A stretch of 64,000 nt of DNA, taken from the NCBI GenBank assembly GCA_016868855.1, contig VGFP01000003.1, positions 124,001 through 188,000 of the forward strand, given 5' to 3'. Numbering within the stretch: position 1 is the first letter of the stretch; each line of letters opens with the position of its first letter. Under the pieces are notes generated by a model that had not been told where the DNA came from, did no database searches, and was given only the letters and a program-made list of their open reading frames with translations. The position numbers were made by a program, and so were the translations under genes. Source of the DNA: Bacteroidota bacterium (GTDB taxonomy: Bacteria; Bacteroidota; Bacteroidia; Chitinophagales; Chitinophagaceae). Below are positions 952 to 7,237 of the stretch, in pieces.

Positions 952-1045
952 GTCAACAAAATTAAATCATTCTGCCACGGGGATTTCGCATTTTGCTTAA
1001 CAATTTATTAATCTTGCATCATTGAGTATTGACCAGCATCCAAAC

Positions 1046-1073: not shown

Positions 1074-1754
1074 ATGGCCCCTGAAATCAAAAAAGTTCTC
1101 ATAGCTGACGATGAGCCAGATATTTTGGAAATCATCAGTTACAATTTACAGTTGCATGGCTATACGGTTTTTACAGCCAAAGACGGTGAACATGCTATCA
1201 GACTAGCCCAAGAAGTACATCCTGATCTGATCATTTTGGACATCATGATGCCAAAGAAAAATGGCATAGAAGTCTGCAAACAACTTCGAACCCAACCTGC
1301 ATTTCAAGATACCATCATCGTATTTTTAACTGCTTTGAATGATGAACTCTCTCATGTCAGGGGTTTGGAATTTGGAGCCGATGATTTCATCGCCAAGCCG
1401 ATATCACCCAAAGTGATGGTTTCAAAAGTGAATTCTTTTTTCCGTCGCATCAACAAACAAGAAGCCTCCAAGGCTATTGAGATGGGTAATTTGAGGATCG
1501 AGCCAGAGGAATATGTGGTTTATTACAAAGATGAACCCATCAATTTAGCCAAGAAAGAATTCGAATTGCTGAGTTACTTGGCATCCAAACCTGGACGCGT
1601 TTTTCTTCGCAATGAAATCTTGAATAAAATCTGGGGCAATGATGTGATTGTAGGAGACAGGACCATTGATGTGCACATCAGAAAAATAAGACAAAAGCTT
1701 GGTATCGACTGCATTACAACCGTCAAGGGTGTAGGTTATAAGTTTGAGCTTTAA
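1074..1754 (+). CDS. OmpR/PhoB-family response regulator
   Basis: Receiver domain (KVLIADDEPDILEI...DLIILDIMMPKKNG...FGADDFIAKPI) plus winged-helix effector domain (GDRTIDVHIRKIRQKLG...TVKGVGYKFE). Confidence 0.95.
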   Translation: MAPEIKKVLIADDEPDILEIISYNLQLHGYTVFTAKDGEHAIRLAQEVHPDLIILDIMMPKKNGIEVCKQLRTQPAFQDTIIVFLTALNDELSHVRGLEFGADDFIAKPISPKVMVSKVNSFFRRINKQEASKAIEMGNLRIEPEEYVVYYKDEPINLAKKEFELLSYLASKPGRVFLRNEILNKIWGNDVIVGDRTIDVHIRKIRQKLGIDCITTVKGVGYKFEL

Positions 1755-1798: not shown

Positions 1799-2842
1799 AT
1801 GTTCGAATCAAAGAACTACTCACCCACTCGGATTGCTTTTTACATCAGCTTGTCCGCTGCAGCAACAGCCTTGCTCATTGCTGTATTGCCAGGCGGTGGA
1901 CTGATCAAAATCTCATCCATTGTATTGGGTGTATTCACAGTTTCTTTTCTGGTTGCACGTTATTTCATCAACGAATTTATTTACAGAAGGGTCAAGCTTA
2001 TTTATAAATTCATCAACCAGACCAAGGCCTCCAAAAGAGAAGAGTTTTTCCAAAAAAATATTCTGCCCCAACAAAACTTGGATGAAGTTGGAGAGGAAGT
2101 CCTGAAATGGGCCGATCACCGCAAAGATGAAATGGAAGTACTTGAGAGAAACGAAGCATTCAGAAAAGAATTTTTACAAAACCTCTCGCATGAGTTCAAG
2201 ACTCCAGCATTTGCCATTCAAGGCTATCTGGAAACACTGATCGATGGTGCAGCTGACAACCATGAAGTCAACAAAAAATTTTTATCCAACGCGTATAAAA
2301 ACACTGAACGGTTGATACACCTGATTTCAGACTTGGATGAAATCACCCGCTTGGAAAGCGGTAAACAGGAATTGCATTACCAACATTTTGTGATCCAAGA
2401 TCTGATCAACGAGGTTTTTGAAACATTGAGCATCAAAACTTCCGTCAAAAAGATCAATTGCCTGATCAAAAAAGGATGCGAACAACCCATCTTGGTTCAT
2501 GCCGACAAAGAAAAAATCAGACAGGTGCTGATCAACCTGGTTGACAATGCTGCCAAATATGGAAGCGAAGAGGGAAAGATTGAAGCAAGTATTTATAAAA
2601 CAGATGATAAAACTGTCCTGATTGAAATTACCGACAATGGCATTGGCATTGCAGAGGAACACCTGCCTAGAATCTTTGAAAGATTTTACAGGACAGATTA
2701 TGGTAGAAGCAGGAACATCGGAGGCACTGGATTGGGACTCGCCATTTGCAAACACATCATTGAAGCACATGGAGGTTTCATACAGGTGAGAAGTTCACCT
2801 GGCATAGGCACCACCCTTGGCTTTACACTTGGTGTTGCCTAA
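1799..2842 (+). CDS. Sensor histidine kinase (PhoR-like architecture)
   Basis: N-terminal TM segments, H-box FLQNLSHEFKTPAFAIQGYLETL, N-box LINLVDNAAKYG, G-boxes DNGIGI and GGTGLGLAICKHI; directly after the response regulator. Confidence 0.95.
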   Translation: MFESKNYSPTRIAFYISLSAAATALLIAVLPGGGLIKISSIVLGVFTVSFLVARYFINEFIYRRVKLIYKFINQTKASKREEFFQKNILPQQNLDEVGEEVLKWADHRKDEMEVLERNEAFRKEFLQNLSHEFKTPAFAIQGYLETLIDGAADNHEVNKKFLSNAYKNTERLIHLISDLDEITRLESGKQELHYQHFVIQDLINEVFETLSIKTSVKKINCLIKKGCEQPILVHADKEKIRQVLINLVDNAAKYGSEEGKIEASIYKTDDKTVLIEITDNGIGIAEEHLPRIFERFYRTDYGRSRNIGGTGLGLAICKHIIEAHGGFIQVRSSPGIGTTLGFTLGVA

Positions 2843-2866: not shown

Positions 2867-4255
2867 TTAATACGCTTTATTTTGTGGATCCCAATTGGTC
2901 CACTTATCAGTCCAATTGGTTGTTCCCATGGCACCTCTGAACGCCACGGTTGTGAAGAATGCATTCATACCGGTGAAGGATGCACCAGTCAGCGCTGGTG
3001 AACCAGTTGCAGGCAAGAAATTAGGTGATGTGGAATAATAAGGAGACGTCAATTTGGCATCATCTCCACTTGCCAACGTAATACATCCTTCTGATTCAGC
3101 CTTGGTCTGCATAGCCGCTGCTGTGATGACTGCAATTGCATTTGCATCACCACGATAGTTAGCAGAAGCAGTATTGGAATGAACCAAATTATTTCTAAAC
3201 TCTGAAGTTCCGGCGAGGTAAGATTCCGCAGTTGCTTTTGATTCAATGGAAAATCCAGCCTTTGCCCATCCTATCATGATGGAGTTGCGCAATAAAAACT
3301 GCGTGGATCTTCTCCATCTGTTTCCGAAGTTATGATTGGCTGCTGTTCCTGATGCTCCGTTCGGACCAACAAAGGTAAAATTACTCAACTGAGGTCTGGT
3401 TATGGGAGTAGCTGTAGAGCCAGAACCATCGTTGTCGCACTCAATACCATTTCCAGCATCTCCACCATCCACAAAATCTGGTTTGCGGCATGCGATTCCG
3501 TATTGGATTTTTCCTACATAACCGAAATCAAAGTCAAAATCGTCATCAGCTGTTGCGAAAGCGATCAGGTTTTTACAGTTTACAGTTCCACCAAAAAATT
3601 CAAATGCATCGTCGTTTCCAAAAGAAACCTGTACATTTTCTATGATGGTTCCTGAACCTACACCACCCAATGTGAGTCCGTTGATTTCTGAACCAGGTTC
3701 AGCTGCAATACCTGCGAATTCTATACGTACGTATCTGAGAATTCCACTGTCATCGTTGGGATCTGTTCCACCATATTTTCTACCCACACCGCCTTCAATA
3801 ATTGGCGCTGGATCCAGCGGTCTGTTGGTCGGCGCTTTACCCAACATAATGATACCACCCCAATCACCAGGAGTACGCTGACCGATGGGTTTACCGCTGG
3901 TGAATACAATTGGATTGTCTGCACGACCATCGGCAATCAATTTTGCTCCGCGTTCAATGATCAAAGCCCCTTTCTCTGTGATGTCACTTACGATGACACT
4001 ACCCGGTGCAACAGTCAGAGTATTTCCCTCTGTTACATATACATATCCTTTTAGTGTGTATTTACCCTTGGGAAGAAAATAATCTTTTGTCAATATTCCT
4101 TGAATAACTCCTCCGTTGGTTGCAGGGTCTTGGCTATCGGTAGCAGCAGAAGAACCACCGTTGTTGTTGGTGATATACTCTTCAAAGTTAACTTTTAGAC
4201 AAGAGCTCAAACCAAACACTGCGAGAGCTAAAACACTCAAAATGATCCTTTTCAT
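2867..4255 (-). CDS. Outer-membrane lipoprotein, beta-helix-like, unknown function
   Basis: Lipobox LSSC near N-terminus; repeated Gly/Asn-rich segments (GGIIMLGKAP, VRIEFAGIAAEPGSEINGLTLGGVGSGTIIENVQVSFGNDDAFEFFGGTVNCKNLIAFATADDDFDFDFGY). Directly downstream of the TonB receptor on the same strand. Confidence 0.75.
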   Translation of the reverse strand: MKRIILSVLALAVFGLSSCLKVNFEEYITNNNGGSSAATDSQDPATNGGVIQGILTKDYFLPKGKYTLKGYVYVTEGNTLTVAPGSVIVSDITEKGALIIERGAKLIADGRADNPIVFTSGKPIGQRTPGDWGGIIMLGKAPTNRPLDPAPIIEGGVGRKYGGTDPNDDSGILRYVRIEFAGIAAEPGSEINGLTLGGVGSGTIIENVQVSFGNDDAFEFFGGTVNCKNLIAFATADDDFDFDFGYVGKIQYGIACRKPDFVDGGDAGNGIECDNDGSGSTATPITRPQLSNFTFVGPNGASGTAANHNFGNRWRRSTQFLLRNSIMIGWAKAGFSIESKATAESYLAGTSEFRNNLVHSNTASANYRGDANAIAVITAAAMQTKAESEGCITLASGDDAKLTSPYYSTSPNFLPATGSPALTGASFTGMNAFFTTVAFRGAMGTTNWTDKWTNWDPQNKAY

Positions 4256-4275: not shown

Positions 4276-7083
4276 TTATTTTTTATCTAGATTAAAATCG
4301 TATGTAAACGTTAGTGTGACCGTAGTACCGGGTTTGTAGTTGCTGAACATCCTATCAACACCCTTCTTGAATGCGAATGACTGATCTATATTCTCATAGA
4401 AATAGAAAGGATTGTTGATCATATCAGCAATATTCAATTTCAACTCACCATTTTTATCCAAGATTTTTTTGCTGATTTGAAAATCCAACTGATTTCTTGG
4501 ACGCTCATACACATTTGGAAACTCTGAATTACCCACCAATGCGAGTCGCTGGCCTACCCTGTTGTACAACAGTGATGCATTGAACTGTTCAGATGTCCAT
4601 TGGAAACCTGCGTTTATCAGATATGGAGATTGTCCCTGCAATGGCCTTGCTGCTGTAACTTCTTTGTTTCCTGCACTGAGATCGTTGAATTTTACTTCCG
4701 ATTGAGTATATGTGTAGTTTCCAAAAAAGAATAAATTCTTAAATGCAGCAGATAAAAAATCCATCCCTTTGCGTACCTCAATTTCCAAACCAAAAGTTTT
4801 TGCATTCAATGCGTTCTGATAAAAGTATCTCCTGGAATCTGCATTGCTCGCAGGATCCAATCTAAATTCAATAGGATCAGTGAAATCTTTGTAAAAAGCA
4901 CCAATGGTGATCGACTCATTAGATTTCGGATACCATTCATAACGGGCATCATAGTTGAGTACTGAAGAGCGCCTCAAACTTGTATCTCCTTTAACACCGT
5001 AATTGGTTTCATAGTCAAAGAAAGCGAAAGGTGCTAGTTCACGAAACTCTGGACGCGCAACAGTTCTGCTGGCGGACAATCGGATGTTTTGCTTGCTTTT
5101 CAAACTGTACATCATGTTGGCTGAAGGAAGGAAGTCCCATTTTTTTGTCAGCAACACACTGCGTTCACCAGTTTGAATCTTAGAGGTCAGCAACTGCTGG
5201 AAGTTCTCCGCCCTCAATCCCCATACCAATCTCAGGTCATTGAATTTATTATCCATCATCATATATGCAGCATTCAGAATGGATGCACCAAAGTACCTGT
5301 CTTGATTGTTGGTAAAATCCTCCAAAATATACCCTGAAGTACCCATGTTGGAGGGTCTGAATGCGGCAATCAATTCTTTGTTGGCATTGGATGCAATAAA
5401 CGAATTGAAATTGGTGATATTATACCTGAAAATTCTGCTGCGGAAATCTCTTACCCTTGTCAAATTTGATCCGCCGAATTTCAATGTTTGCTTGTCCTTT
5501 CCACCCCAGCTCATCGGGACAATAAATTGCCCGGTTGTACCAACACTGAAGTCCTTCAGATCACTGTAAAATCTCCTGGTGTCATCCGGATCAATCTCAT
5601 ATGCTTCCGTTGTTCCAATACGTCTGGCATACAAGGCACTTCTTAGATCAGGTTGTTTTTTCCAATTGTACCCTCCATTACCATTCCACTTGAACTTGAT
5701 GCCAGTTTTGGTCAGTTGATGTTCTCCCTCCAACTGTGTACTGAACAACGTACGCTGATTTAAAAAGGAGGAATAAAATTTGATATCGTTCAGGCGATTC
5801 GTATTGTATCCTGTTCTTGAATAGTAATTGTCTTCAAAGAACTGATTGAAGATATTTTTGAATGAAATCTTGGAACGCTTTTTAACATACGATAAATTCA
5901 GCACTGCGCCATTCGTAACCTGGAAATGATTTTGCTGATCATTGTATTCAAAAACATTCTTTCCATCTGCTTCATAAAAAGCCCTTCCAACGTTGTACAT
6001 CAATCTTGAGTTCCTGTAATTCACGCTGAGCAATGTTCCCAGTTGTGACCCATTTTTGAAAGAGTGTGTATTGGCATACGTGATTACATAATTTTTGATG
6101 GGATCCGCTTTACGAACCTCCTCAACATACGCATCACCGCTGAAGAGTTTGGTCAGTTCGATTTGCTTGTTCAAACCCGCTGCATTTTTCCCCAATGTTC
6201 TGTAATCCTGTGCCGTTCTGGGGAAGCTATCTGGTAAATTTCTGGAACCGTCGTCAAAGCCCAACCAATCAAATCTGTTACGTGCATTGCTGGTGAAATC
6301 ACGGAAAGTGGATTGGTTATTATACCCAAATCCGATTCCTACACTCACAACGCTTTTGGAAGGAATATCTCTTGTATTTACCTGTACGAGTCCACCAGAA
6401 AATTCCCCTGTATATTCTGAGGTGGATGTCTTGTTGATGACAATATTATCGATCATCGCAGCGGGCAACATATCGAATGAAAATGCTTTTTTGTCAGGCT
6501 CTGTGCTTGGCAGCAACGCACCATTCAACATGGCGGAATTGTATCTGTCAGACAAACCCCTTACAATGACAAAACGGTTGTCTTGGATAGAAGCGCCACT
6601 CACACGCTTGAGCACTTCACCGGTATTTTTATCTGGAGTTCTTTTGATAAAATCTGCCGCCAATCCGTTGGAAAGAGCGGTGTTGTTTTTTTGAAAACTG
6701 ATCAGCGCAACCGTACTTTCCAGTCTGCGTGTTGACCTGATCACAATTGCCTCACCCGTTACGACCTTTGGCTCCAATACAATGACGAGCTCCTCGTTGA
6801 TAGCAGATGCATCAACATCTGAAACCAGTTTGGAATTGTAACCGGTAGATGATACCAGCAGCGTATACTTTTTGTTTTTTTCTAGACTTACCCTAAAAAT
6901 ACCTTCCACATTGGCAGAGAACTGCTTGTTGGTTTCTTCTATTTTGATCGTTGCACCAGCAATGGGCTCGTTTCTTAGATTGATAACTTTACCCAGAACG
7001 GTAACTGTCTGGGCATAGGATATGCTGGATAAAGTGACTGTGAATAAAAGGATAAAAATTCGCACAATTCCCCTGTTGGTCAT
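4276..7083 (-). CDS. TonB-dependent receptor with N-terminal carboxypeptidase-like regulatory domain
   Basis: Signal peptide, CarboxypepD-reg-like domain (TVLGKVINLRNEPIAGATIKIEETNKQF), plug domain (VLKRVSGASIQDNRFVIVRGLSDRYNSAMLNGALLPS), long C-terminal beta-barrel. Confidence 0.92.
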   Translation of the reverse strand: MTNRGIVRIFILLFTVTLSSISYAQTVTVLGKVINLRNEPIAGATIKIEETNKQFSANVEGIFRVSLEKNKKYTLLVSSTGYNSKLVSDVDASAINEELVIVLEPKVVTGEAIVIRSTRRLESTVALISFQKNNTALSNGLAADFIKRTPDKNTGEVLKRVSGASIQDNRFVIVRGLSDRYNSAMLNGALLPSTEPDKKAFSFDMLPAAMIDNIVINKTSTSEYTGEFSGGLVQVNTRDIPSKSVVSVGIGFGYNNQSTFRDFTSNARNRFDWLGFDDGSRNLPDSFPRTAQDYRTLGKNAAGLNKQIELTKLFSGDAYVEEVRKADPIKNYVITYANTHSFKNGSQLGTLLSVNYRNSRLMYNVGRAFYEADGKNVFEYNDQQNHFQVTNGAVLNLSYVKKRSKISFKNIFNQFFEDNYYSRTGYNTNRLNDIKFYSSFLNQRTLFSTQLEGEHQLTKTGIKFKWNGNGGYNWKKQPDLRSALYARRIGTTEAYEIDPDDTRRFYSDLKDFSVGTTGQFIVPMSWGGKDKQTLKFGGSNLTRVRDFRSRIFRYNITNFNSFIASNANKELIAAFRPSNMGTSGYILEDFTNNQDRYFGASILNAAYMMMDNKFNDLRLVWGLRAENFQQLLTSKIQTGERSVLLTKKWDFLPSANMMYSLKSKQNIRLSASRTVARPEFRELAPFAFFDYETNYGVKGDTSLRRSSVLNYDARYEWYPKSNESITIGAFYKDFTDPIEFRLDPASNADSRRYFYQNALNAKTFGLEIEVRKGMDFLSAAFKNLFFFGNYTYTQSEVKFNDLSAGNKEVTAARPLQGQSPYLINAGFQWTSEQFNASLLYNRVGQRLALVGNSEFPNVYERPRNQLDFQISKKILDKNGELKLNIADMINNPFYFYENIDQSFAFKKGVDRMFSNYKPGTTVTLTFTYDFNLDKK

Positions 7084-7149
7084 AAATAGAATTATTGCAC
7101 AAAGAAACCTACCAACTATTGCCCGCCTGTTAATGCAGGATGAACCTAT

Positions 7150-7177
7150 TGTAATGCGAATGTTACCGCATTGTTAA
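7150..7177 (-). promoter_or_regulatory. Candidate PhoB/PhoP-type direct-repeat operator (three hexamers, 11-bp period)
   Basis: Minus-strand TTAACA-ATGCG-GTAACA-TTCGC-ATTACA: hexamers at 7177-7172, 7166-7161 and 7155-7150, each separated by 5 bp, about 67 bp upstream of the TonB receptor start. Confidence 0.55.
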
Positions 7178-7237
7178 CAGGTGGGATACCTGTTGATAAG
7201 TAAAAAAAATGCATCTTTGCCACTCAATATTTTGCTC

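Follow-up and report, generated by a model that had tools for sequence, protein, structure and literature searches.

A probable Pho box array of six direct repeats at the promoter of a TonB-dependent receptor operon in Chitinophagaceae and related Bacteroidota

The PHO box is a defined operator form made of 11-nucleotide direct repeats (PMC4415409), and Streptomyces has operators of four or five units (PMC7866108). Among Bacteroidota, the phosphate response has been measured in one member, Flavobacterium johnsoniae, whose PUSIV locus encodes the TonB-dependent transporter Fjoh_0545 (PF07715, PF13715 and PF14905), the lipoprotein FII (Fjoh_0546), phoB and phoR. Fjoh_0545, Fjoh_0546 and phoB are induced by Pi depletion, the first two strongly and specifically (PMC8115612). 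The words 'motif' and 'promoter' are absent from the main text of that study, so that no operator is described there (PMC8115612), and we found no description of a Bacteroidota Pho-box consensus in the literature searched. The F. johnsoniae lipoproteins FI, FII and FIII are 31-36% identical to ElpS of Caulobacter crescentus (PMC8115612). There too, a surface lipoprotein induced by Pi starvation is encoded beside a TonB-dependent receptor, Cc0171; ElpS is linked to a type II secretion system, and Cc0171 was reported to be constitutively expressed (PMC2996285).

The window (the whole stretch of 64,000 nucleotides analysed here) contains a locus of the PUSIV kind, with a TonB-dependent receptor carrying the same three domains, then a lipoprotein, and phoBR-like genes adjoining the pair (Table 1). 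For orthology to the F. johnsoniae genes we relied on domain content and genomic context. The lipoprotein has no Pfam match and a sequence search of the PDB returned none either; its predicted model (pLDDT 89) gave weak matches to parallel beta-helices in a fold search (best PDB E-value 1.2e-3, all top matches being beta-helix). In 76 of 80 named loci the lipoprotein follows the receptor, and the others are truncated or nearly so. As the initial annotation had recorded, the regulator and kinase genes (1074-2842) are convergent with the receptor/lipoprotein pair, unlike those of the F. johnsoniae PUSIV. The same convergent arrangement, close downstream of receptor and lipoprotein, is found in 16 of the 80 named loci, and in three class-level loci phoB is directly divergent from the receptor.

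The regulator has a receiver and a winged-helix output domain (PF00072 and PF00486). Its two best families are the PhoB equivalogs TIGR02154 and NF053854, despite scores below their cut-offs (228.8 against 296.2 and 208.3 against 270 bits, respectively). For the kinase, the PhoR equivalogs TIGR02966 and NF053855 score 222.5 against 334.2 and 194.4 against 500 bits, with the match confined to the kinase core; PnpS, WalK and PhoR all stay below curated cut-offs, and no PAS domain was detected in the protein. Because of these sub-threshold scores we name the pair PhoB-like and PhoR-like.

Table 1. Positions of the features at the receptor and phoB promoters and of the neighbouring genes, in window coordinates; Pho-box units 4 to 6 are absent from the initial annotation
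Feature	Positions	Strand	Remark
Two-unit box TTAACA-ATTTA-TTAATC, phoB promoter	997..1013	+	36 bp before TTTG of the -7 box TAACTTTG (1046-1053)
PhoB-like OmpR-family response regulator	1074..1754	+	likely binder; without close paralogue, next full-length homologues in the genome 33% and 28%
PhoR-like histidine kinase	1799..2842	+	N-terminal hydrophobic region (about residues 11-58), HisKA, HATPase_c
Lipoprotein, FII/ElpS kind	2867..4255	-	predicted right-handed beta-helix-like fold
TonB-dependent receptor (PF13715, PF07715, PF14905)	4276..7083	-	homologous to Fjoh_0545 by domain set and context
Receptor promoter -7 box TTTCTTTG	7100..7107	-	TTTG invariant in the 28-row array table
Pho-box unit 6 (GCAATA, one mismatch)	7117..7122	-	identical in L157 and L113
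Pho-box unit 5 (TTAACA)	7128..7133	-	
Pho-box unit 4 (TTCATC, degenerate)	7139..7144	-	TTCATG in L157 and L113
Pho-box unit 3 (ATTACA)	7150..7155	-	
Pho-box unit 2 (GTAACA)	7161..7166	-	
Pho-box unit 1 (TTAACA)	7172..7177	-	kept in L157 (receptor identity 92%) and L113 (87%)

Read from 7177 to 7150, the minus strand upstream of the receptor gives TTAACA-ATGCG-GTAACA-TTCGC-ATTACA, exactly the three TTAACA-like hexamers with 5-bp spacers described initially. These are the first half of an array whose actual count is six hexamers in 11-bp phase, running from 7177 to 7117. The end of unit 6 lies exactly 13 bp from a TTTG (7103-7100), the 3' half of the receptor -7 box; Bacteroidota sigma-A promoters have the consensus TAnnTTTG at -7 (PMC9723704). 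Units 4 and 6 depart from the consensus, which we count against a Pho box; the sub-threshold scores of the regulator and the negative searches for PhoU and Pst, the usual partners, weigh in the same direction. The composite three-hexamer pattern occurs once in the window, where shuffles lead one to expect 0.13 occurrences (up to three mismatches). When the upstream region was shuffled 3000 times with dinucleotides preserved, the three-hexamer score was never reached. The six-unit array scores 35.7, whereas the best of 4570 shuffles scores 21.4.

Is this arrangement conserved before orthologous receptors? Relatives of the receptor at E <= 1e-100 occur in 96 of 150 genomes of the family. Upstream of 41 receptors, hexamers of the form [GT]TAA[CT]A are found in 60 pairs at an offset of 11 bp, 33 at 22 and 25 at 33, against zero to five for most of the other offsets. 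On the opposite strand of the same regions a single pair lies 11 bp apart, so that the hexamers are directional. We then scored named genomes retrieved by receptor similarity, 75 of which had enough upstream DNA, ranging from Chitinophagaceae to Pedobacter and Daejeonella. The best placement of the array fell 13 bp from TTTG in all 75 orthologues, with 11 to 15 bp allowed; the placement in L178 is out of register, and its four units likewise end 13 bp before TTTG. Six good units were present in 23 loci, five in 23, four in 23 and three in 6. At least four were thus found in 69 of 75 orthologues, as compared to more than three in none of 1277 shuffles. The mean array score was 33.7 in orthologues and 5.8 in shuffles, whose spacings were evenly spread, and alternative periods of 9, 10, 12 and 13 dropped to shuffle level. 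In the closest relatives (L157 and L113) the form of units 1, 3, 5 and 6 is kept, the non-consensus TTCATS and GCAATA included, and the spacers drift while the hexamers stay. The alignment across relatives that had been proposed as a check therefore bears the array out, and its distance from the -7 box does not vary.

Which other genes carry such an array? We scanned genomes with R1, a sequence-only model whose training set was the receptor promoters alone. In the window's own genome R1 matches only the receptor (E-value 3e-14) and one further site (E-value 2e-5), which precedes a phosphate-transport operon encoding Porin_O_P (PF07396), PhoU_div (PF01865) and PHO4 (PF01384). In five of ten relatives a site lies before a PlcP-like metallophosphoesterase that has a glycosyltransferase behind it; other sites in the ten precede porin-like proteins, a PhoX-like protein, enzymes of the PF01663/PF00884 type (phosphodiesterases) and other TonB receptors. 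Another site in relatives precedes an ElpS/FII-like lipoprotein 42% identical to that of the window, while the targets in L091, L095, L097 and L103 are no obvious phosphate genes. Of the 29 class-level sites, 24 have within 1.5 kb a homologue of the receptor, lipoprotein, PhoB, PiT, PhoU_div or porin; this is a raw co-occurrence count scored in 3-kb loci, and it includes three receptor matches that are weak or generic. The initial annotation had looked to pst, phoX and phoU for further sites: the phosphate-transport operon of the own genome and the PhoX sites of relatives answer to this, whereas searches of the genome turned up neither pst nor phoU. Some arrays in unrelated genomes (L091 1501-2300, L208 and L217) are followed by short secreted proteins in which MORN-like repeats can be seen by eye.

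Conservation, fixed spacing, a regulon largely of phosphate genes and the match to PUSIV together argue for a Pho box array. We hold it very probable, from these sequence comparisons, that the six-unit element drives the receptor-lipoprotein operon under phosphate shortage via a PhoB-like regulator, and the array almost certainly switches on the outer-membrane receptor when phosphate is short. A phosphate-responsive receptor/lipoprotein module, as proposed initially, is backed by the conserved array, by the sites before phosphate genes and by the induction of the F. johnsoniae homologues upon Pi depletion (PMC8115612). With the PHO boxes of PhoB in E. coli and of PhoP in Bacillus and Streptomyces, the element shares 11-nucleotide tandem repeats ahead of phosphate-acquisition genes, here in the own genome and in relatives, a fixed position relative to the core promoter and, presumably, an OmpR-family regulator reading them head to tail. 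Several features set it apart. Its core is KTAAYATT instead of CTGTCAT or GTTCACC, and receptor promoters usually carry six units, unlike the known boxes of these species. The array stands at 13 bp before the Bacteroidota -7 TTTG, whereas known PHO boxes lie near a -10 hexamer, and it occurs, unlike known PHO-box systems, in genomes where PhoU, and usually Pst too, were not found.

Could the array also control rmlA, as was first suggested? Its distance to the rmlA ATG (7238) is 60 bp, rmlA is divergent in the nearest relatives, and TTAACAGG and CCTGTTGA (nearer rmlA) form an inverted repeat. However, the hexamers are directional, and no phased repeat reaches significance on the rmlA-sense strand (p 0.07-0.19). 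The array is also still there in most orthologous loci, which do not have rmlA as a neighbour. Among the rmlA-bearing loci where the rmlA -7 box could be placed, the array lies 28-38 bp from that box in most and 101-103 bp in two, while on the receptor side the distance is always 13 bp. Two-way control is left unsupported by an array that points one way and by a distance that varies from 28 to 103 bp, and we consider it very improbable. As separate observations on this intergenic region, rmlA has a -7-like box of its own, GCATCTTTG (window 7211-7219), conserved in relatives; an inverted repeat, TTAACAGGTGGGATACCTGTTGA (window 7174-7199), lies between this box and the array and is kept only in the closest relative.

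Tandem direct repeats are also bound by other OmpR-family regulators. Another member of the OmpR/PhoB family might bind the array, or the signal might be other than phosphate (general envelope or nutrient stress, for example), and two further full-length homologues in the genome, together with the position of the 1074 protein under the curated PhoB cut-offs, speak for this. Yet these homologues are only 28-33% identical to the 1074 protein, phoB lies repeatedly beside the receptor, and the regulon returned by a blind model consists largely of phosphate genes, which makes this alternative very improbable. The likelihood of chance repeats in an A+T-rich intergenic region is negligible: TTAACA-N5-TTAACA with two mismatches is common in the own genome and not enriched over the reversed pattern, so that hexamer pairs alone are uninformative, but conservation, fixed spacing and shuffles exclude chance for the full array.

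If the element is a Pho box array read by the adjoining pair, low phosphate would cause the PhoR-like kinase to phosphorylate the PhoB-like regulator, which would occupy the six direct repeats as three dimers in head-to-tail order, with units 5 and 6 in the place of a -33 element. The bound regulator would act by activation rather than repression, recruiting sigma-A RNA polymerase to the -7 box, and the receptor and its surface beta-helix lipoprotein would capture, then import, a phosphorus-containing ligand. An operator definition of six KTAAYATT units in 11-bp phase, 13 bp from TTTG, would allow the Pho regulon of uncultured Bacteroidota from lakes and soils to be read off their sequence, and would give many TonB receptors and lipoproteins that are still unexplained a role in phosphorus acquisition. 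With such a definition one could also test by what route PhoR senses phosphate in genomes where searches find no PhoU and no Pst.

The phoB promoter has a different box, of two units. Taken alone within the window, this box is weak (p about 0.02). The pattern TTAACA-N5-RTAATM is found 34-37 bp before TTTG in eight of nine phoB promoters and in all nine porin-PiT promoters examined (L222-L228, L152 and L125 for the latter). The two-unit box of the phoB promoter is likely to be autoregulatory.

The set of genes for classical PhoBR-Pst-PhoU sensing, PhoU together with PstSCAB, was not found. PhoU was detected in none of the 12 Chitinophagaceae genomes tested, G000 (the own genome), G054 and G142 included, and PstC passed the cut-off in three of the 12 and was absent from these same three genomes; completeness is 87% for G000 and 100% for the other two, its congeners. 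Phosphate sensing must therefore differ from the E. coli scheme. The own genome has the PiT/PhoU_div operon in place of pst and phoU. In Staphylococcus aureus, PhoPR is restrained by PitR, a PiT-linked PhoU-like protein (PMC13170248), and the PhoU_div protein of the porin-PiT operon could, by analogy, restrain the PhoR-like kinase as PitR does.

Between the distal array and the porin gene of this operon lies a conserved element of about 90 nucleotides, with hairpins, an invariant TCTTTTAATTGC and a terminator hairpin showing compensatory changes. We found it at about 492790-492900 of G000:C1 (L111 about 6791-6900), in L222-L228, at L125 1-150 and at L152 5600-5700, and a Pho-box array of the same kind precedes it. 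In L152, a three-unit array 13 bp before TTTG lies ahead of the element and the porin-PhoU_div-PiT operon follows. RNAalifold gave two-sided changes in six of 19 pairs, from only seven related sequences whose 5' hairpins differ among genomes, and an Rfam search with this porin leader element matched no family. The invariant UCUUUUAAUUGC of the element is complementary to the GCAAUUAAAAGA leader of the porin-PhoU_div-PiT mRNA. This stretch of 12 nucleotides is matched by a complementary GCAATTAAAAGA of the porin leader in all seven congeners and in L125, and L152 has one extra A. We regard the element as a candidate small RNA; alternatively, it may be an attenuator. The TCTTTTAATTGC inverted repeat could also suggest an invertible promoter, but this is not supported, the orientation being the same in nine of nine places examined and the upstream hairpins differing in sequence between genomes.

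Taken jointly, these observations would be compatible with a distinct Pho regulon, widespread in Bacteroidia, without PhoU and mostly without Pst, in which PiT/PhoU_div restrains PhoR. PhoB would read two promoter classes, one of six units at 13 bp (receptor) and one of TTAACA-N5-RTAATM at 34-37 bp (phoB and porin-PiT), and would also turn on an sRNA of about 90 nucleotides (UCUUUUAAUUGC and terminator) pairing with the GCAAUUAAAAGA leader. We offer this combination tentatively, as possible but rather less than even in likelihood; if true, the sRNA would tune PiT against TonB-dependent uptake. Upstream, the porin-PiT operon is adjoined by a gene for a TMEM164-family membrane protein (PF14808; L111 6069-6746), with the same arrangement in G000 and G054, and the distal array starts at the 3' end of this gene.
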